Of a DNA stretch of 64,000 nt, positions 6,303 through 46,273 are shown in pieces. How positions within the stretch are numbered: position 1 is the first letter of the stretch; every line of letters starts with the position of its first letter. The position numbers were made by a program, and so were the translations under genes. This DNA is from Actinospica acidithermotolerans (GTDB lineage Bacteria > Actinomycetota > Actinomycetes > Streptomycetales > Catenulisporaceae): NCBI RefSeq assembly GCF_018139625.1, contig NZ_JAGSOH010000012.1, positions 1 through 64,000 on the forward strand, written 5' to 3'. The notes under the pieces are model-generated. The model had not been told where the DNA came from, searched no databases, and saw only the letters and a list, made by a program, of their open reading frames with translations.

Positions 6303-7429
6303 TTCGCCGCCTCCTCGGCGCGCAGCATCTCCCGCTGGGCCTTGAGCTGAGGCGTCATCTCGTCGTAGACGTGCTCGAACATCTCGTCCGCGTCGTAGGA
6401 CGGCTCCTCGGCGAACTGCGCGCGCATCTGCTCGCAGTAGCGCTCGCACTCCTCGTCGATCTCCGCCTCGACGGCGGCGTCGAGGGCGCCGCGCGCGGTC
6501 AGGTAGCGGCCGAGCCGGTCGATCGGGTCGCGGCGACGCCAGTACTCGACCTCCGCCGACTGCCGATAGCGGGCCGCGTCGTCGGCGTTGGTGTGGGCCT
6601 GCACGCGGTAGGTGACCGCCTCGATCAGCGTCGGGCCGCCGCCGGTCCGCGCGCGCTGCACGGCCTCGGCGAGCACGGCGTTCATCGCGATCAGGTCGTT
6701 GCCGTCGACGCGGATGCCGGGCATGCCGTAGCCGGACGCCTTGTCCGCGAGGCTGATCGCGTGCGTCTGCTTGTGCAGCGGCACCGAGATCGCGTACTGG
6801 TTGTTCTGCACCAGGAACACCACAGGGGCCTGATAGACGGCGGCGCTGTTGGCCGCCTCGTGGAAGTCGCCCTCGCTGGTGGCGCCGTCGCCGAAGAAGC
6901 ACAGCGCCACGGCCGGGTCGCCGGCCAGCTTCGCGGCCAGGCCGAGGCCGACGGCGTGCGGGCCCTGGGTGGCCAGCGGCGTGCACTGCGGCATGGTGCG
7001 CCACTGCTTGGGATCGTAGCCGCAGTGCCACGTGCCGCGCAGCAGCGTCAGCGCGTCCACGGCCGGGATCCCGCGCAGCACGAGCGCGGCGGAGTCGCGG
7101 TAGGTCGGCAGCAGCCAGTCCTGCTCCTCGAGGGCGTGCACCGCGGCGACCTCGCAGGCCTCCTGGCCGCGGCACGACGGGTAGACCGCCAGCCGCCCCT
7201 GCATCACCAGGTTGGTCGCCTCGGTGTCGAAGGCGCGGGCGAAGCGCAGCGCCCGGTACCCGCGCAGCAGCGCGCCCGGGTCGAGCAGCGCCGGGGTCGG
7301 GCGGATGCCGCCCTCCACCGGCGCCCCGTGCTCGTCCAGGTAGCGCAAGGGCTCACTGTCCCAGACGGGTCGGACGGCGGTAGCCGCCTTGCCCTCCCGG
7401 TCTCGCGCGGACAGATCCAGCAGCGTCAT
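6299..7429 (-). CDS. 2-oxoacid dehydrogenase E1 component, alpha subunit
   Basis: 376 residues from ATG 7429-7427, with GGAGACC just upstream. The thiamine-diphosphate motif begins GDGATSEGDFHEAANS and closes with the NN of LVQNNQ. Other family marks are YPSCRGQEA (substrate channel), WLLPTYRDSAALVLRGIP and the phosphorylation-loop region YRVQAHTNADDAARYR. It heads a two-gene unit with the beta subunit. The promoter region carries a perfect inverted repeat (7464-7483) closely resembling the site between the TetR gene and paaN, suggesting repression by a TetR protein and a link to aromatic or fatty-acid breakdown. Whether the complex handles pyruvate or branched-chain acids is not decided. Confidence 0.93.
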   Translation of the reverse strand: MTLLDLSARDREGKAATAVRPVWDSEPLRYLDEHGAPVEGGIRPTPALLDPGALLRGYRALRFARAFDTEATNLVMQGRLAVYPSCRGQEACEVAAVHALEEQDWLLPTYRDSAALVLRGIPAVDALTLLRGTWHCGYDPKQWRTMPQCTPLATQGPHAVGLGLAAKLAGDPAVALCFFGDGATSEGDFHEAANSAAVYQAPVVFLVQNNQYAISVPLHKQTHAISLADKASGYGMPGIRVDGNDLIAMNAVLAEAVQRARTGGGPTLIEAVTYRVQAHTNADDAARYRQSAEVEYWRRRDPIDRLGRYLTARGALDAAVEAEIDEECERYCEQMRAQFAEEPSYDADEMFEHVYDEMTPQLKAQREMLRAEEAAK

Positions 7430-7463
7430 GGGGTCTCCATCGGCTGATCCAGCGGTGTCCAGT

Positions 7464-7483
7464 TACCGACCGGACGGTCGGTA
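7464..7483. promoter_or_regulatory. TetR-type operator upstream of the E1 alpha gene
   Basis: Perfect inverted repeat with 9-bp arms TACCGACCG and CGGTCGGTA around a GA centre. It contains ACCGACCGGACGGT, fitting ACCGNNCGNNCGGT, which I recall as the core of the PaaR consensus reported for Corynebacterium. The site at 10806-10819 has the same core with two different central bases. It lies 35 bases upstream of the E1 alpha ATG, over the expected promoter. Confidence 0.65.
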
Positions 7484-7808
7484 GGTTGTGCTCCCAGTCT
7501 GGCCGCGGGCCCCACGCCTTGTCCAGAGTGCGGACAGCGCCGAGGGCCAACCCCCGTCCGATCAGGCCTTACCACGCGGCGCGGCCCGGCCGCCGAGCCG
7601 GCGCCCTGTCCCTTTCCCACCGGTTACGGCGATTAGTCGCGAATATCAGTACTCATCATGACATCTCGGGGCGACCGTCTCGGAGATGCAGCGAACTTGC
7701 GACAATCCGGTCTCCGGATCTGCAACCGAATGGGCGACGATGGAGTCGGGGTTAAGCAGATATTCGATCAGAAGGTTCGGCAGGGCACCGGAAAGGAAGT
7801 CGGTCTGC
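7484..7808. other. intergenic region between E1 alpha and the LCP gene
   Basis: About 325 bases without a convincing gene. It must contain the promoters of the divergent E1 alpha and LCP genes. The stretch 7640-7770 is less GC-rich than its surroundings, as expected for a promoter. An in-frame extension of the LCP gene begins at 7686 but has no ribosome site or conserved sequence. I see no RNA gene or riboswitch. Confidence 0.4.
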
Positions 7809-9941
7809 ATGAGCGACGGCGGGCGAGGCTGGTATCCCGGGGACGAGGACCCGCGGTACGACCCGTACGCGCCTCCGCAGCAGCCGCCGTCCGGCTACGG
7901 CCGCCCGCCGCAGCAGGGCCAGGGCCGCGGGCCCGGCTACGGCCAGGGGCAGAACCAGGGCGCGCCCGGCCAGGGCCGGCGCCAGGGCGGCGCGCCCGGC
8001 TACGGCCAGGGCGACCCGTATCAGAACCCGCAGGGCGGCCCGGGCTACGGCCGGGCGCAGCCGCCCGGCGGCTACCGGCAGGCCCCGCCGCGCGCTCCGC
8101 AGGGCGGCGACCGGTACCCCGAGGAGCGCGCCGTGCCCCGGCAGCGCCCCGCGCAGCCCTGGGACGCCGAGCCGGCCCGCGCCGACGTGTGGAGCGCGCC
8201 GGGCGAGGACGCGGCCGGCCGTGACGAGCTCGGGGAGAGCCGCGGCAGCCGCCGCCGGCGCGCCGCCGCCGAGGGTGCCGGAGCGGGTGCCGCCGCGGCC
8301 GGTCCCAGCCACGTGAACGACGACATCGACCTCGACGAGGTGGACCCGCACGGCAAGGCGCAGCGCGCCTGGGCCAGGCAGCAGGAGCTGGCCGGCCGGC
8401 CGCCCTCGAAGATGAAGCAGGCCACGAAGTGGACCGCGCTCGGCATGAGCGTCGTCGTGCTCGCCGGGGTCTGCTACGGCGCGTACGTCTACGAGACCAC
8501 CGTCGGCTCGATCAAGCACACCGCGCTGCTGCCCAGCGGCATGAGCGAGGCCTCGCTGCCCGCCGACCCCTACGGCCACACCGCGCAGAACATCCTGCTG
8601 ATCGGCTCGGACACCCGGGACACGGCCGCCGACTGCCAGCTCGGCAACGACTGCGGTCCCGGCGCGAACGCCGACTCGGAGATGATCCTGCACGTCTCCG
8701 CCGAGGGCACCGACGCGACGATCCTGTCCATCCCGCGCGATACCGTCGCCTACCTGCCGAACTGCGCCGAGAAGAACGGCACCACGACGCTCACCGGCTC
8801 CTACAGCACGTACCAGATCAACTCCGCGCTGCAGTACGGCCCCGAGTGCCAGGTCGCCGCGGACCACTACCTGACCGGCATCACCATCACCGGCTACATG
8901 CTGTTCGACTTCAGCGGCATCGTCACGATGTCCAACGCGCTCGGCGGCGTCCCGGTGTGCGTGACCTCGGCCGTGAACGACAAGGACTCCGGCCTGAAGC
9001 TGCCCGCGGGCACCAGCACCATCCAGGGCGACAAGGTCCTCGAGTTCCTGCGCACCCGGCACTCCTTCTTCGACGGCTCGGACCTCGGCCGCGAGGAGGC
9101 GACGCACTACTTCCTCGCCCAGATGATCCAGACGCTGCGCAAGAGCATGAACTTCAGCGACGTCACCCAGCTGATCTCGATCGGCCAGGCGGCGGCCAAG
9201 GCGATGACCGTGAGCGACAACTACGCGGGCCTGACGAACCTGGAGGGCCTGGTCGAGAGCCTGAACCGGGTGCCCACCAAGAACATCACGATGCTGACGA
9301 TGCCGTGGGAGTACGACCCGAACAACCAGAGCCGGGTCATCCCGTCCTCGGCCGCCAAGGCGGTGTTCGCGGCGATCCAGGGCTCGACCTCGTTCACCAA
9401 CACGACCAAGAGCAGCACTTCCAGCTCCGCCAAGTCGGCCACCAGCGCCGCCGCCTCCCCGACCGCCGCGGCCAGCGCGTCCACCTCCGCAAGCGTGGAC
9501 AAGGGCTCGGTCCCGGTGAACGTCTACAACGCCGACGGCGTGAGCGGCCGGGCCACGACGGTCAAGCAGGGGCTGATCTCGGACGGCTTCAGCAACACCG
9601 TCTCCGCGGGCAACGCCTCGACGGTCTCGGCGAGCCAGGTCACCTACGACCCGAACGAGGCCACCCGCGCCGAGGCCGACGCGGTCGCCGCCGCGCTCGG
9701 CATCTCGACCTCCGAGGTGTCGGCGACGACGAACTGGAAGGGCGTCAGCGTCTTCATCGGCACCGACTTCACCAGCGGCACCAAGCTCGGCGCCGGAACC
9801 GGCAGCACGGCCTCCACCCCCTCGGTGAACACCAGCGGCGCCGCCACGGCCCCCGCCGACTCGCACGAGAGCTTCGCGAGCGGCTCGGAGAACGAGTGCA
9901 TCCCGGTGGAGAGCGGCACGCTGAGCATGGCCTCCAAGTAG
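7809..9941 (+). CDS. LCP-family (LytR-CpsA-Psr) cell-wall glycopolymer ligase with LytR_C domain
   Basis: 710 residues from ATG 7809, chosen because GGAAAGGAAG lies just upstream; an extension to 7686 adds unconserved sequence. Residues 1-190 are a disordered cytoplasmic tail rich in Gly, Gln, Pro and Arg. One membrane segment follows (WTALGMSVVVLAGVCYGAYV), then the LCP domain with its landmarks NILLIGSDTRD, the MILHVSAEGTDATILSIPRDT strand and FLRTRHSFFDGSDLGR, where conserved Arg and Asp residues bind the lipid pyrophosphate. After a Ser/Ala/Thr linker, a LytR_C domain (VPVNVYNADGVSGRATTVKQ) ends near residue 660. The enzyme attaches lipid-linked glycopolymers to peptidoglycan outside the membrane. 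It converges with the TetR gene. Confidence 0.92.
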   Translation: MSDGGRGWYPGDEDPRYDPYAPPQQPPSGYGRPPQQGQGRGPGYGQGQNQGAPGQGRRQGGAPGYGQGDPYQNPQGGPGYGRAQPPGGYRQAPPRAPQGGDRYPEERAVPRQRPAQPWDAEPARADVWSAPGEDAAGRDELGESRGSRRRRAAAEGAGAGAAAAGPSHVNDDIDLDEVDPHGKAQRAWARQQELAGRPPSKMKQATKWTALGMSVVVLAGVCYGAYVYETTVGSIKHTALLPSGMSEASLPADPYGHTAQNILLIGSDTRDTAADCQLGNDCGPGANADSEMILHVSAEGTDATILSIPRDTVAYLPNCAEKNGTTTLTGSYSTYQINSALQYGPECQVAADHYLTGITITGYMLFDFSGIVTMSNALGGVPVCVTSAVNDKDSGLKLPAGTSTIQGDKVLEFLRTRHSFFDGSDLGREEATHYFLAQMIQTLRKSMNFSDVTQLISIGQAAAKAMTVSDNYAGLTNLEGLVESLNRVPTKNITMLTMPWEYDPNNQSRVIPSSAAKAVFAAIQGSTSFTNTTKSSTSSSAKSATSAAASPTAAASASTSASVDKGSVPVNVYNADGVSGRATTVKQGLISDGFSNTVSAGNASTVSASQVTYDPNEATRAEADAVAAALGISTSEVSATTNWKGVSVFIGTDFTSGTKLGAGTGSTASTPSVNTSGAATAPADSHESFASGSENECIPVESGTLSMASK

Positions 9942-35958: not shown

Positions 35959-36657
35959 ATGCGACTGACTCCGACCGAGCGGGACCGGCTGCTGATCTTC
36001 ACCGCGGCCGAGCTCGCCCGCGCGCGGCGGGCCCGGGGCCTGCGGCTGAACGTGCCCGAGGCGGTGGCGTTGATCGCCGATACGGTGTGCGAGGCGGCGC
36101 GGGACGGGGCGCGGTTGGCGGACGCGGTGGCGGCCGGGCGCGGGGTGCTGGGGCCCGCGGACGTGCTGCCGGGGGTCGCGGCGATCGTGACCGAGGTGCA
36201 GGTCGAGGCCGTGTTCGAGGACGGGACGCGGCTCGCGGTGATCTCGGATCCGATCGGGGGCGAGCAGGCGGGCGCGCCGGGGGCGATCCTGCTGCGGGAC
36301 GAGTCGCAGCATGCTGCCGTCGAGCCGGCGGACGTCGTGTCGCTGGAGGTCGTGAACACCGCCTCCGTGCCGATCTCGGTCACGTCGCACTTCCACTTCT
36401 TCGAGTCGAACCCGCGGCTGCGCTTCGACCGGGCGGCGGCCTACGGACGTCATCTGGCGGTGCCGGCCGGGTCCTCGGTGCGGTTCGATCCGGGGGCCGC
36501 GGTGCGCGTCTCGCTGGTGCCGATCGGCGGGGAGCGGGTGGCGATCGGGTTCGCGGGGCTGGTGGACGGCCCGCTGGACGAGCCGGGGGCGAAGGAGCGC
36601 GCGCTGGCGAAGGCCGCGGCGTGCGGGTATCTGACCGTGGAGGGCGGCGTCCGATGA
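35959..36657 (+). CDS. ureAB: fused urease gamma-beta subunit
   Basis: 232 residues from ATG 35959; a longer frame back to 35794 is Pro/Gly-rich and unconserved. Residues 1-100 are the gamma subunit (LTPTERDRLLIFTAAELARARRARGLRLNVPEAVALIAD, then EVQVEAVFEDGTRLAVISDPI). Residues 110-232 are the beta subunit (VEVVNT-like segment, VTSHFHFFESNPRLRFDRAAAYGRHLAVPAGSSVRFDPG). It overlaps ureC by ATGA. Gamma-beta fusions are known in actinomycetes. No ureD, ureE, ureF or ureG is in the window, although 290 bases upstream are free of genes. It forms the scaffold for the alpha subunit. Confidence 0.9.
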   Translation: MRLTPTERDRLLIFTAAELARARRARGLRLNVPEAVALIADTVCEAARDGARLADAVAAGRGVLGPADVLPGVAAIVTEVQVEAVFEDGTRLAVISDPIGGEQAGAPGAILLRDESQHAAVEPADVVSLEVVNTASVPISVTSHFHFFESNPRLRFDRAAAYGRHLAVPAGSSVRFDPGAAVRVSLVPIGGERVAIGFAGLVDGPLDEPGAKERALAKAAACGYLTVEGGVR

Positions 36658-38345
36658 GCTTCGACGCGGAGCAGTACGTCTCGGTGCACGGCCCGCGGGT
36701 CGGCGACCGGGTCGTGCTGGGCGACAGCGGGCTGATCGCTCAGGTCGAGTTCGACTCGCAGCAGCCGGGGGACGAGTTCCTCGCCGGGTTCGGGAAGACG
36801 GCGCGCGACGGGCTGCACCTGAAGGCCGCGTCGGTGCGCGCCACGTGCGACCTGGTGATCAGCAACGTCCTGGTGATCGACCCGGTGCTCGGCATCGGCA
36901 AGACGTCGATCGGCGTGCGCGAGGGGCGGATCCACGCGATCGGGCGGGCCGGGAACCCGGACACCATGTCAGGGGTCGACGTCGTCGTCGGGACGGGGAC
37001 GACGATCGTGTCCGGCGAGGGGATGATCGCGACCGCCGGGGCCATCGACACGCACGTCCACCTGCTCTCGCCGCGCATCATGGAGGCCTCGCTCGCCTCC
37101 GGCGTGACCACGATCGTCGGCCAGGAGTTCGGGCCGGTCTGGGGCGTCGGGGTGAACTCGCCGTGGGCGCTGCGGCACGCGTTCAACGCGTTCGACGCGT
37201 GGCCGGTGAACATCGGCTTCCTGGCCCGCGGCTCGTCCTCGAACGCCGATCCGCTCGTGGAGGCGCTGGTCGAGGGCGGGGCGAGCGGCTTCAAGGTGCA
37301 CGAGGACATGGGTGCGCACGCCCGCGCCCTGGACACCGCGCTGCGGGTCGCCGAGGAGCACGACGTGCAGGTCGCGCTGCACACGGACGGCCTGAACGAG
37401 TGCCTGTCCGTCGAGGACACCCTCGCGGTGCTGGAGGGGCGCACGATCCACGCCTTCCACATCGAGGGCTGCGGCGGCGGGCACGTGCCGAACGTGCTGC
37501 GGCTGGCCGGCGTCCCGAACGTGATCGGCTCCTCGACGAACCCGACGCTGCCGTTCGGGCGGGACGCGCTCGGCGAGCACTTCGGCATGATCGTCTCGGC
37601 GCACGACCTGAAGCCGGAGCTGCCCGGCGAGGCCCAGATGGCCCGCGACCGGATCCGCGCGGGCACGATGGGCGCGGAGGACGTGCTGCACGACCTCGGC
37701 GTCATCCCGATCACCTCGTCCGACGCGCAGGGGATGGGCCGCGCCGGGGAGACCGTGCGCCGGACGTTCGCCGTCGCGGCGAAGATGAAGGCCGAGCTCG
37801 GCGGGCTCGACGGCGCGCAGCCCGCCGCGCACGACAACGCGCGCATTCTGCGCTACATCGCGAAGCTGACGATCAACCCGGCCATCGCGCACGGTCTCGC
37901 GCACGAGATCGGCTCGCTCGAGGTGGGCAAGCTCGCGGACGTCGTGCTGTGGCGGCCCGGGTACTTCGGCGCGAAGCCGCAGCTCGTGCTGAAGGCCGGC
38001 TTCCCCGCGTACGGCGTGGTCGGCGATCCGAACGCGGCGACCGACCGCTGCGAGCCGCTCGTGCTCGGGCCGCAGTTCGGGGCGCACGGCGCGACGGCGG
38101 CGGACCTGTCGGTGGCCTTCGTCTCCGGCGCCGCCGCCGAGGCCGAGTCGGACCGCTTCCCGTCCCGGCGGCGCCGCGTCGGCGTGCGCGGGACGCGCGG
38201 GATCGGCCCGGCCTCGATGGTGCGCAACGCCCGGCTCGGCCTGGTCGAGGTGGCCCCGGCGACCGGCGCGGTCACCCTCGACGGCGAGCCGGTCAGCTCT
38301 CCGCCGGCCGAGACCGTGCCGCTCTCCCGCCTGTACTTCCTCTGA
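36654..38345 (+). CDS. ureC: divergent urease alpha-subunit homologue
   Basis: 563 residues from ATG 36654. Nickel-site residues are kept: HVH at 134-136, the carbamylated Lys in GFKVHED (K214, H216), H243 in ALHTDG, H277 in GGGHVP and D357 in TSSDAQ. Other features differ from canonical UreC. The mobile-flap Cys (C319 in Klebsiella) is Ala at 316, followed by the conserved His 317. The GGGTGPAxGTxATTCTPG segment is replaced by a shorter GQEFGPVWGVGVNSP. The Ala after the SSD motif (A363) is Gly. These changes would open the pocket. The gene lies directly before agmatine deiminase, so N-carbamoylputrescine is a candidate substrate; this is inference. Urease remains the alternative. Confidence 0.82.
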   Translation: MSFDAEQYVSVHGPRVGDRVVLGDSGLIAQVEFDSQQPGDEFLAGFGKTARDGLHLKAASVRATCDLVISNVLVIDPVLGIGKTSIGVREGRIHAIGRAGNPDTMSGVDVVVGTGTTIVSGEGMIATAGAIDTHVHLLSPRIMEASLASGVTTIVGQEFGPVWGVGVNSPWALRHAFNAFDAWPVNIGFLARGSSSNADPLVEALVEGGASGFKVHEDMGAHARALDTALRVAEEHDVQVALHTDGLNECLSVEDTLAVLEGRTIHAFHIEGCGGGHVPNVLRLAGVPNVIGSSTNPTLPFGRDALGEHFGMIVSAHDLKPELPGEAQMARDRIRAGTMGAEDVLHDLGVIPITSSDAQGMGRAGETVRRTFAVAAKMKAELGGLDGAQPAAHDNARILRYIAKLTINPAIAHGLAHEIGSLEVGKLADVVLWRPGYFGAKPQLVLKAGFPAYGVVGDPNAATDRCEPLVLGPQFGAHGATAADLSVAFVSGAAAEAESDRFPSRRRRVGVRGTRGIGPASMVRNARLGLVEVAPATGAVTLDGEPVSSPPAETVPLSRLYFL

Positions 38346-38404
38346 CGCTTCGCACGACGCTTCGCATGACGCTTCGTAGGACGGTTCCAGTGACGCTTCC
38401 CGTG
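38345..38404 (+). repeat. 12-bp degenerate tandem repeat between ureC and aguA
   Basis: Five units starting at the last base of the ureC stop: ACGCTTCGCACG, ACGCTTCGCATG, ACGCTTCGTAGG, ACGGTTCCAGTG and ACGCTTCCCGTG. They end 18 bases before the aguA start codon and replace a normal intergenic spacer. Confidence 0.75.
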
Positions 38405-38422
38405 ACCGAGGAGACCCCTGAC

Positions 38423-39466
38423 ATGCCCACCCCCGCAGAGCTCGGATTCGCGATGCCCGCCGAATGGTCGCCGCACGAGCGCACCTGGATGGCCTGGCCC
38501 ACGGAGGGGTACACGCTCGGCGAGGACCCGGCCGAGGCGTACCGCGCGTGGTCGCAGGTGGCGAACACGATCGTGCGCTACGAGCCGGTGACGATGGTCG
38601 TCGACCCGGCGGCGCGCGCGTCGGCCGACGAGTGGCTGGACCCGGCCGTCGCCAAGGTCGAGTTCCCGCTCAACGACGCCTGGATGCGCGACATCGGCCC
38701 GACCTTCCTGACGCGCGGGGCCGGGGGCGGGGCCGGCGAGCTCGCCGCCGCCGACTGGATCTTCAACGGCTGGGGCGCGCAGTCCTGGGCGCAGTGGGAC
38801 AAGGACGCGGACATCGCCGAATCGGTCATCGGGCACGCCGGGGCACGCCGCTTCATCTCGCGCCTGGTCAACGAGGGCGGCGGCATCCACGTCGACGGCG
38901 AGGGCACGGTGCTCGTCACCGAGACCGTGCAGCTGGACCCGGGCCGCAACCCGGACTGGACCAGGCAAGCGGTCGAAGACGAGCTCAAGGCCTTCCTCGG
39001 CGTCGGCAAGGTCATCTGGCTGGCGCGCGGGCTTACCCGGGACTACAGCGAGTTCGGCACGCGCGGGCACGTCGACATCGTCGCGGCGTTCGTGCAGCCG
39101 GGCGTCGTGGTCGTGCACACGCAGCCGGATCCGGCGCACCCGGACCACGAGGTGGGCAAGGCGAACGCCGCCCTGCTGCGGGGCGCGACGGACGCCCGCG
39201 GCCGCGCCCTCGAGGTGGTCGAGCTCCCGGCGCCGACGGTGATCACCGACGCGGACGGCGAGCCGGTGGACTACTCGTACATCAACCACTACCTCGGCAA
39301 CGGCTTCGCGCTGCTCTGCGGCTTCGACGACCCGCGCGACGCGCAGGCGGCCGAGATCCTCGGTTCGCTGCTGCCCGGCCGCAAGATCGAGCTCGTCGAC
39401 GCCCGGCCCATCTTCGAGCGCGGCGGCGGCATCCACTGCATCACCCAGCAGCAGCCGGCGGTCTGA
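38423..39466 (+). CDS. aguA: agmatine deiminase
   Basis: 347 residues from ATG 38423, with GAGGAGA upstream. It is a guanidino-modifying (pentein) enzyme: MPAEWSPHERTWMAWP at the start, NDAWMRDIGPTF, VNEGGGIHVDGEGTVLVTE, GTRGHVDIVAAF with the catalytic His and GGGIHCITQQQP with the nucleophilic Cys at 339. It converts agmatine to N-carbamoylputrescine and ammonia. The usual next enzyme, N-carbamoylputrescine amidase (AguB), is not present; the neighbouring gene pair is ureAB-ureC. The first gene after it is a secreted protein with its own promoter region. Confidence 0.94.
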   Translation: MPTPAELGFAMPAEWSPHERTWMAWPTEGYTLGEDPAEAYRAWSQVANTIVRYEPVTMVVDPAARASADEWLDPAVAKVEFPLNDAWMRDIGPTFLTRGAGGGAGELAAADWIFNGWGAQSWAQWDKDADIAESVIGHAGARRFISRLVNEGGGIHVDGEGTVLVTETVQLDPGRNPDWTRQAVEDELKAFLGVGKVIWLARGLTRDYSEFGTRGHVDIVAAFVQPGVVVVHTQPDPAHPDHEVGKANAALLRGATDARGRALEVVELPAPTVITDADGEPVDYSYINHYLGNGFALLCGFDDPRDAQAAEILGSLLPGRKIELVDARPIFERGGGIHCITQQQPAV

Positions 39467-44903: not shown

Positions 44904-45635
44904 GTGTCCGTCCTCGTCGACCATGCCGCGAGCATGCTGGCCTACCGGCCGGCCAAGCTGACCGCGATGGTAGTTGTGCACGATCCGCGCGTGCGCACCT
45001 CAGTGACCCGCCATCTGTGGGCACTCGGAGTGCGCGATGTGGTGGAGGCCTCCACCATCGCCGAGGCGCGAAGCCGGATGGCCACGGTTCGCGATATCGC
45101 GGTCGTGGACGTGCATCTGCCGGACGGCCCCGGCCTGGCGTTGCTGGCGGAGATGCGCACGGCCGGGTGGAACAGCGCGGTCGCCATCTCCACCGCCGAC
45201 GACACCAACGCGGTGCGCGCGGCGCTCGCCTCCGGGGTGCGCGGCTACGTGGTCACCGGCGCCCGGACGCTGCCGCAGGCCCGCCCGGGGCTGAACGGGA
45301 TGAACGGCGCGGGCCCGATGGGGCACGGCCACGGCCCGGCGCACCTGCGCGAGCGGCGGCTGGCCGCGATGTCCGGACAGGCCGGCACGATGGCCGCGCT
45401 GGCCCAGGGCTCGATCCCGAACACCATGAACGCCGGCGTGCGCGAGCTGTCCGCGCGCGAGATCGAGGTGCTGCGGCTGGTCGCCGACGGCCGCTCGAAC
45501 AAGGCCATCGGGCAGACGATGGGGCTGAGCGCGCTGACCGTGAAGAGCCATCTCGCTCGGATCGCCCGCAAGCTCGGCACCGGCGACCGCGCCGGCATGG
45601 TCGCCGTGGCCATGCGCGGCGGGATCATCGCCTGA
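44904..45635 (+). CDS. LuxR/NarL-type regulator with an atypical receiver domain
   Basis: 243 residues from GTG 44904, with AGGGAGG 5 bases upstream. The receiver domain (about 20-125) keeps the phospho-acceptor Asp in AVVDVHLPDGPG and the Thr of AISTADD. It has only one acidic residue at the metal pocket (VVVHDP), and the conserved Lys after GYVV is missing (TGA follows). A linker rich in Gly, Met and Ala precedes the GerE helix-turn-helix: LSAREIEVLRLVADGRSNKAIGQTMGLSALTVKSHLARIARKLGTGDRAGMVAVAMRGGII. No sensor kinase gene is near. The last 32 codons and the stop are the first unit of a 108-bp tandem array. Confidence 0.9.
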   Translation: MSVLVDHAASMLAYRPAKLTAMVVVHDPRVRTSVTRHLWALGVRDVVEASTIAEARSRMATVRDIAVVDVHLPDGPGLALLAEMRTAGWNSAVAISTADDTNAVRAALASGVRGYVVTGARTLPQARPGLNGMNGAGPMGHGHGPAHLRERRLAAMSGQAGTMAALAQGSIPNTMNAGVRELSAREIEVLRLVADGRSNKAIGQTMGLSALTVKSHLARIARKLGTGDRAGMVAVAMRGGIIA

Positions 45636-46077
45636 CCATCGCCCGCCGTGACGAGCCACCTCACCCGGGCCGCCCGCAAGCTCGGCACCGGCGACCGCGC
45701 CGGCATGGTCGCCGTGGCCATGCGCGGCGGGATCATCGCCTGACCATCGCCCGCCGTGACGAGCCACCTCACCCGGGCCGCCCGCAAGCTCGGCACCGGC
45801 GACCGCGCCGGCATGGTCGCCGTGGCCATGCGCGGCGGGATCATCGCCTGACCATCGCCCGCCGTGACGAGCCACCTCACCCGGGCCGCCCGCAAGCTCG
45901 GCACCGGCGACCGCGCCGGCATGGTCGCCGTGGCCATGCGCGGCGGGATCATCGCCTGACCATCGCCCGCCGTGACGAGCCACCTCACCCGGGCCGCCCG
46001 CAAGCTCGGCACCGGCGACCGCGCCGGCATGGTCGCCGTGGCCATGCGCGGCGGGATCATCGCCTGACCGTCGCCCG
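45538..46077 (+). repeat. 108-bp tandem array: the LuxR gene's 3' end plus four more copies, all in frame
   Basis: Anchored at GCCCGCAAGCTCGG, units recur at 45564, 45672, 45780, 45888 and 45996, exactly 108 bases apart. The first is the end of the regulator gene and differs from the others at its start; units 2-4 look identical and the fifth diverges only after its stop. 108 bases are 36 codons, so every copy reads in the gene's frame and ends in the same GGIIA and TGA. Each copy after the gene has its own GTG: 31 codons, from TSHLTRAARKLGTGD to the TGA. Reading through each stop would therefore add repeated half-HTH domains. Confidence 0.95.
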
Positions 46078-46273
46078 CGTCGCCCGCGGCACGTGGGCTT
46101 CCGGACAACCCGCGGCCTTCCCTGCGGGGCGTCCGCGTTCGTGTGACTAACCACGCCTGCGGGTGAACTCCCGCGCTCGCTGCCCGCCGGGGGCATGTCC
46201 CTCGTGCGGGCGGACGCGTTGGTCCGGTCGGTTGTCCGGTCGGCCCAGGTCCACGGCGTCGGGGAGTAGCACC

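Follow-up and report, generated by a model that had tools for sequence, protein, structure and literature searches.

Urease is a textbook nickel enzyme, highly specific and dependent on dedicated chaperones. Two described enzymes are precedents for unusual maturation: in Bacillus subtilis, ureABC occurs without accessory genes and gives very low activity (PMC8600894), and the UreA2B2 of Helicobacter mustelae is an iron urease, with iron replacing nickel (PMC11541087). In Streptomyces coelicolor, SCO5525-5526 have been reported as a second 'ureABC' and SCO5527 as an AguA homologue, with no effect of ArgR or arginine on these genes (PMC3293853), and an earlier survey of UreC noted that such Streptomyces clusters hold only ure(AB)C (PMC2492869). 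No functional link of SCO5525-5526 to the SCO5527 deiminase was proposed in the literature that we found (PMC3293853, PMC2492869). Here we analyse a locus of this kind in Actinospica acidithermotolerans, within a stretch of 64,000 nucleotides (positions 1 to 64,000 of contig NZ_JAGSOH010000012.1; hereafter the window), in which a fused ureAB, a ureC and a gene of the agmatine deiminase family (aguA-like, PF04371) follow one another. A preliminary description of this DNA had called the three genes contiguous, with which coordinates and domain calls agree, and had mentioned similar loci in Streptomyces, which exist as SCO5525-5527.

We narrowly favour an explanation in which ureAB-ureC would encode a urease-family hydrolase that is independent of accessory proteins and acts on the ureido compound made by the deiminase, most probably N-carbamoylputrescine. 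The deiminase would convert a guanidino compound (most likely agmatine) to a ureido compound (N-carbamoylputrescine) and ammonia, and UreABC would hydrolyse the terminal urea group of this product, releasing CO2 and ammonia and leaving putrescine as the free amine. The second step would run through the conserved bimetal centre, the carbamylated lysine and His320, with a substituted nitrogen in place of the channel-facing distal NH2 of urea, and the complex would mature without UreD, UreF or UreG. The explanation starts from the observed gene linkage, the separate clade, the kept catalytic residues, the absence of accessory genes from genomes with only this UreC, and the lack of any AguB or putrescine carbamoyltransferase hit above cut-off; to these it adds an inferred substrate, reaction order, metal and self-maturation. 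Our literature searches found no urease acting on carbamoylputrescine.

The UreC of the window belongs to a distinct lineage. In a class-wide search of 395 genomes, variants of this kind were at least 52% identical to the window UreC and all other UreC at most 49%, and in trees the variants formed one clade with full support against 22 other UreC. Between families, variant UreC proteins share about 80% identity and retain every catalytic residue. When a phylum-wide sample of 397 genomes was searched at a strict threshold of 1e-170, the variant was found only in the window genome and in genomes of the same order, and not outside the class. The nearest named relative is A. durhamensis (94% identity in UreC; the window genome is 7.9 Mb and Actinospica-like).

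Genomes in which the variant stands alone bear on its maturation. The variant is the sole UreC in 23 sampled genomes, and UreD, UreF and UreG above cut-off were found in 0 of these 23; in one of the sampled genomes, G289, a UreG fragment at a contig end fell just below the cut-off (199.7 versus 204.2 bits). Every tested genome with both kinds of UreC has UreD and UreG. Since these proteins are present with canonical UreC and absent from variant-only genomes, the accessory genes go with the canonical urease rather than with the variant. From this distribution we infer that the variant urease can mature without UreD, UreF and UreG. The preliminary description had reported no ureDEFG; this is right for the locus, where neither ureD, ureF or ureG nor aguB is found, but not for the genome: a canonical ureABC(F)GD cluster lies on its contig 96, and contig 412 carries a second ureF-ureG-ureD set (6801-8891 of locus L012) that is not accompanied by ureABC and is neighboured by xdhC, a MobA-like gene and one for a PucR-like regulator. 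With both kinds of UreC and this second set present, UreDFG could therefore still serve the variant in the window genome, and the lack of accessory genes holds for the variant-only genomes but not for this and other genomes with both kinds.

We aligned the window UreC to that of Klebsiella aerogenes, whose numbering is used below. All metal ligands are kept (H134, H136, K217, H246, H272 and D360), in line with the earlier claim for the nickel ligands and the carbamylated lysine, and so are H219, D221, H320 and R336. Differences from K. aerogenes comprise C319 (Ala316 in the window protein), A363 (Gly360), W222 (Met219), A276 (Cys273) and GG157-158 (QE), and the 21-residue GGGTGPA loop segment reads VGQEFGPVWGVGVNS----PW, four residues shorter, with the deletion after residue 167. 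Among 137 variants there is essentially no variation in the metal ligands or in H219, D221, H320 and R336 (K217 at 99%). F47, Q157, E158, C276, M342 and G363, fixed or nearly so, set the variants apart from canonical UreC, and the four-residue deletion is a feature of the clade. W222 is replaced by Met, Thr or Leu, the flap residue C319 by Val (81%), Ala (11%) or Ser, and position 167 by Val, Phe or Met. The shortened and replaced GGGTGPA segment and the change of Ala to Gly after the SSD motif, both pointed out previously, are thus borne out, the latter clade-wide; the change of the flap Cys to Ala is correct for the window protein but is not the rule of the clade. We do not retain the claim that all of these changes would enlarge the pocket: given the residues found at 167 and 319 and the replacement of Gly-Gly 157-158 by Gln-Glu, the pocket is, judged from the alignment, altered and not simply enlarged.

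The change of Cys319 to Ala alone proves little, because the C319A urease retains part of its urease activity. Crystal structures exist for K. aerogenes Cys319 variants (e.g. 1fwa). When urea is bound in Sporosarcina pasteurii urease, its distal nitrogen points into the channel, and the carbonyl groups of Gly280 and Ala366, equivalent to K. aerogenes 277 and 363, hold it in place (PMC7433671). Positions 276 and 363 are Cys and Gly throughout the variant clade, which would fit a substituted distal nitrogen. An AlphaFold model of the window UreC has a template modelling (TM) score of about 0.91 to solved ureases; it supports the fold only, as its mean predicted local distance difference test (pLDDT) score is 79 and confidence is low at 273-276 and 360-362, that is, in the active site.

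Other unusual UreC were also seen (below, L denotes loci and G genomes of the comparison samples, and f18 a Pseudonocardiaceae-like family). A third type, in f18 genomes (L182 on contig 21 of G207, L147 and L149), has the four-residue deletion, Val319 and Gly363 as in the variant, plus a fused ureAB; at L182 an Amidohydro_3 gene and an MHS-like permease gene lie downstream of ureC. The divergent UreC of L144 and L163, 48-49% identical to the window protein, lack three residues of the GGGTGPA loop, carry Gly363 and keep the flap Cys.

The neighbourhood of the variant points to a partner enzyme. Among the nearest loci, defined as the best 80 from a species-level genome collection and nearly all from Streptomycetaceae, BLAST found ureAB, ureC and the deiminase gene in the same order in 80 of 80, which is therefore no chance juxtaposition. 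The order ureAB-ureC-aguA also occurs in a second family, f18 (L165-L169), and G195 and G230 have the order aguA-ureAB-ureC. The variant is accompanied by deiminases of other subfamilies in G027, G305, G352 and G289 and at L018, L080 and L173. In the tree at least three subfamilies are placed next to variant ureases. For a more distant comparison, we set 30 variant loci or genomes from across families against 20 canonical urease neighbourhoods of the same class. Near the variant we found a deiminase gene in 12/30, an Amidohydro_3 gene in 13/30 and the polyamine transporter genes PotABCD in 7/30. Deiminase and Amidohydro_3 never occur together beside the variant (Fisher P ~9e-5, ignoring relatedness), and one or the other is linked to the variant at 25/30 loci versus 1/20 for canonical urease, whose neighbourhoods gave no deiminase (0/20), no PotB/C/D (0/20) and one weak Amidohydro_3.

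PotABCD stands beside the variant in three arrangements (L127-L129; L134 and L141; L136 and L138), with the pot genes upstream, downstream or convergent according to lineage, and the deiminase gene occurs as ureC-aguA, as aguA-ureAB or as a convergent aguA. Given these differing gene orders and deiminase subfamilies, the link has therefore arisen or been maintained on several occasions. PF04371 is missing altogether from eight genomes, seven of which have Amidohydro_3 beside ureABC. At L134 the linked Amidohydro_3 gene spans 6475-8094; from its position and exclusivity beside the variant, our guess is that Amidohydro_3 is an alternative iminohydrolase. The arrangements share their chemistry: an enzyme that turns a guanidino into a ureido group adjoins a hydrolase of urea groups. 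At L018, L080 and L173 the Streptomyces clusters have the same UreC with a different deiminase, and hold nearby deiminase paralogues (several apparently exported by the twin-arginine pathway), TetR regulators and a dipeptide-type ATP-binding cassette transporter.

Several findings count against the favoured explanation, and we set them out here together with the rivals that they concern. First, the preliminary description had asked whether the variant always travels with aguA; in the nearest loci it does, but in the distant comparison many variants have Amidohydro_3 instead and 5 of 30 have neither, and G300 holds the variant with no PF04371 gene at all. Second, and this is our main doubt, an accessory-free enzyme that hydrolyses urea would explain part of the data. 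Such an enzyme would be an ordinary urease of modest activity, maturing without accessories as in B. subtilis (PMC8600894) and found in nitrogen and polyamine clusters since agmatinase and arginine breakdown release urea. The conserved catalytic residues are compatible with it, the 23 variant-only genomes hold no other urease, and an agmatinase-family protein, encoded in 24 of 30 sampled genomes and in most of the variant-only ones, could make the urea. We nevertheless consider this rather unlikely. Deiminases release no urea, yet at least three of their subfamilies sit beside the variant; the six genomes lacking an agmatinase, the window's included, all have the deiminase-linked form (chance ~0.002-0.003 if they were independent, which they are not fully); the lining of the active site has changed in a fixed manner across the clade; and genomes such as the window's already possess a canonical urease.

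A third set of findings concerns the substrate of the deiminase. The window deiminase, the sole PF04371 gene found in its genome, keeps the catalytic Cys, His, Asp and Glu, with the motifs NDAWMRD, NEGGGIHVDG, GHVD and GGGIHCITQQQ, but scores under the agmatine deiminase equivalog cut-off (TIGR03380, 305.7 versus 381.8 bits). In the plant agmatine iminohydrolase MtAIH, Asp220, four residues before the catalytic His, binds the terminal amine of agmatine (PMC6447857). Gly replaces the equivalent acid in the window protein, as in each of the 11 deiminases of the window type that the tree contains, and agmatine itself is therefore not secured as the substrate. In addition, the Streptomyces flanks hold other permease types and no polyamine transporters: among the 80 nearest loci the operon continues with a TetR regulator in at least 54 and an MHS-type permease in at least 34, and a divergent upstream permease, of NCS1 type as read by eye, occurs in at least 41 (these clustering-based counts are lower bounds owing to a crude gene caller, and key counts come from BLAST). 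Another guanidino substrate, such as a guanidino acid or exogenous guanidine, might thus pass through the same two steps to a ureido product other than N-carbamoylputrescine. We hold this to be unlikely, as the same UreC clade also pairs with PotABCD transporters and with deiminases that keep an acid, Glu, at the MtAIH Asp220 position (L018, L080, L130-L132 and L173), and the UreC of L018 and L080 are 82-84% identical to that of the window.

Lastly, another enzyme (a beta-ureidopropionase-like nitrilase, an AguY-type amidase or a carbamoyltransferase) might use the deiminase product, the link to UreABC then reflecting shared nitrogen regulation or a relic. In Actinomycetota, AguY is known as an alternative amidohydrolase for N-carbamoylputrescine (PMC12283126). 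AguB was found above cut-off in 0 of 34 genomes and putrescine carbamoyltransferase in 0 of 22; AguY-type amidases were not searched for genome-wide. The earlier statement that aguB is lacking accordingly stands for the locus and for these cut-offs, with the qualification that contig 389 of the window genome encodes a nitrilase that reaches 254 bits against the AguB model (cut-off 410). We set this protein aside as an AguB, since it is below the cut-off and adjoins a dihydropyrimidinase gene, which suggests pyrimidine catabolism. In G043, a deiminase gene lies about 1.7 kb from a carbamoyltransferase gene whose product scores 459 bits against the model for putrescine carbamoyltransferase (cut-off 500; contig 63:10158-13860); the two probably form an agmatine deiminase system of their own, alongside the variant urease that G043 also encodes. 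Against use of the product by another enzyme, six f18 genomes with the deiminase (G055, G151, G260, G308, G324 and G370) score only ~46-97 bits to the AguB model, and the identity and kept catalytic residues of UreC across families are unlike those of a relic. We regard this last rival as highly improbable.

Taken together, N-carbamoylputrescine appears to be the leading candidate substrate of the urease-like complex, with another ureido compound possible. The suggestion of the preliminary description that this complex hydrolyses the AguA product is partly supported: the linkage to deiminase and polyamine genes, the absence of UreDFG from variant-only genomes and of AguB and putrescine carbamoyltransferase, all judged by the cut-offs, speak for it, but pocket enlargement, a constant aguA partner and agmatine as a secured substrate do not form part of it any longer. 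On these comparisons, a separate urease branch in many soil actinomycetes probably breaks down a urea-tagged polyamine and not urea. More tentatively, and with less confidence than doubt, we raise the possibility that the whole branch left urea for N-carbamoyl polyamines, maturing independently of UreDFG, perhaps with some metal different from nickel, and served by either of two non-homologous enzymes, an AguA-type deiminase or Amidohydro_3.

The three genes are listed in Table 1. ureAB and ureC overlap in ATGA, and the deiminase gene lies 77 bases 3' of ureC. ureAB matches NF009671 (fused gamma/beta urease) with 323 bits against a cut-off of 243, as well as PF00547 and PF00699. ureC matches NF009686 (alpha subunit, 721 bits) and PF00449, and falls under the curated urease alpha equivalog cut-off (TIGR01792, 619.7 versus 680 bits). 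Elsewhere in the window, at 45538-46078, the 3' end of a response regulator gene (44904-45635) is repeated in a 108-base unit, present in five tandem copies that match at 98%.

Table 1. Genes of the variant urease and deiminase locus in the window.
Gene	Product	Length (amino acids)	Positions	Strand	Basis
ureAB	Fused urease gamma/beta subunit, variant clade	232	35959-36657	+	ATG start and stop read directly
ureC	Urease-alpha-like subunit, variant clade	563	36654-38345	+	ATG start; domain searches, alignment, trees
aguA-like	Agmatine deiminase family, PF04371	347	38423-39466	+	ATG start; domain search, motifs

A conserved, chaperone-less and polyamine-tied sister clade would illustrate how the active site of urease can be adapted to a substituted urea and put together in another way. 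If the explanation is true, the annotation of 'second ureases' across Streptomyces, including SCO5525-5526, would be corrected and the disposal of the deiminase product in actinomycetes with an agmatine deiminase but no AguB would be explained. On the more tentative reading of the whole branch, N-carbamoylputrescine would gain a fourth kind of enzyme acting on it, a urease-family enzyme with a substituted urea as its natural substrate. Compared with the nickel ureases of K. aerogenes and S. pasteurii, the variant has the same fold, as modelled, the same set of subunits, metal ligands and carbamylated lysine, and the same H219, D221, H320 and R336, but it differs in clade, in residues 157-158, 167, 222, 276, 319 and 363, in its four-residue deletion, and in the genomes that carry it alone, which are without UreD, UreF or UreG above cut-off. 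Like the B. subtilis UreABC, it can have structural genes without accessory genes (PMC8600894), whereas both that enzyme and H. mustelae UreA2B2 hydrolyse urea and the variant clade is instead linked to deiminase and polyamine genes. The routes from AguA to AguB, to putrescine carbamoyltransferase or to AguY (PMC12283126) resemble the window locus in joining an AguA-family deiminase to a partner that would use up its ureido product; in the window this partner is a urease-family metalloenzyme in place of a nitrilase, carbamoyltransferase or amidase. The closest described counterpart is that of S. coelicolor, where SCO5525-5526 and SCO5527 form the same trio and belong to the same family as the window locus.

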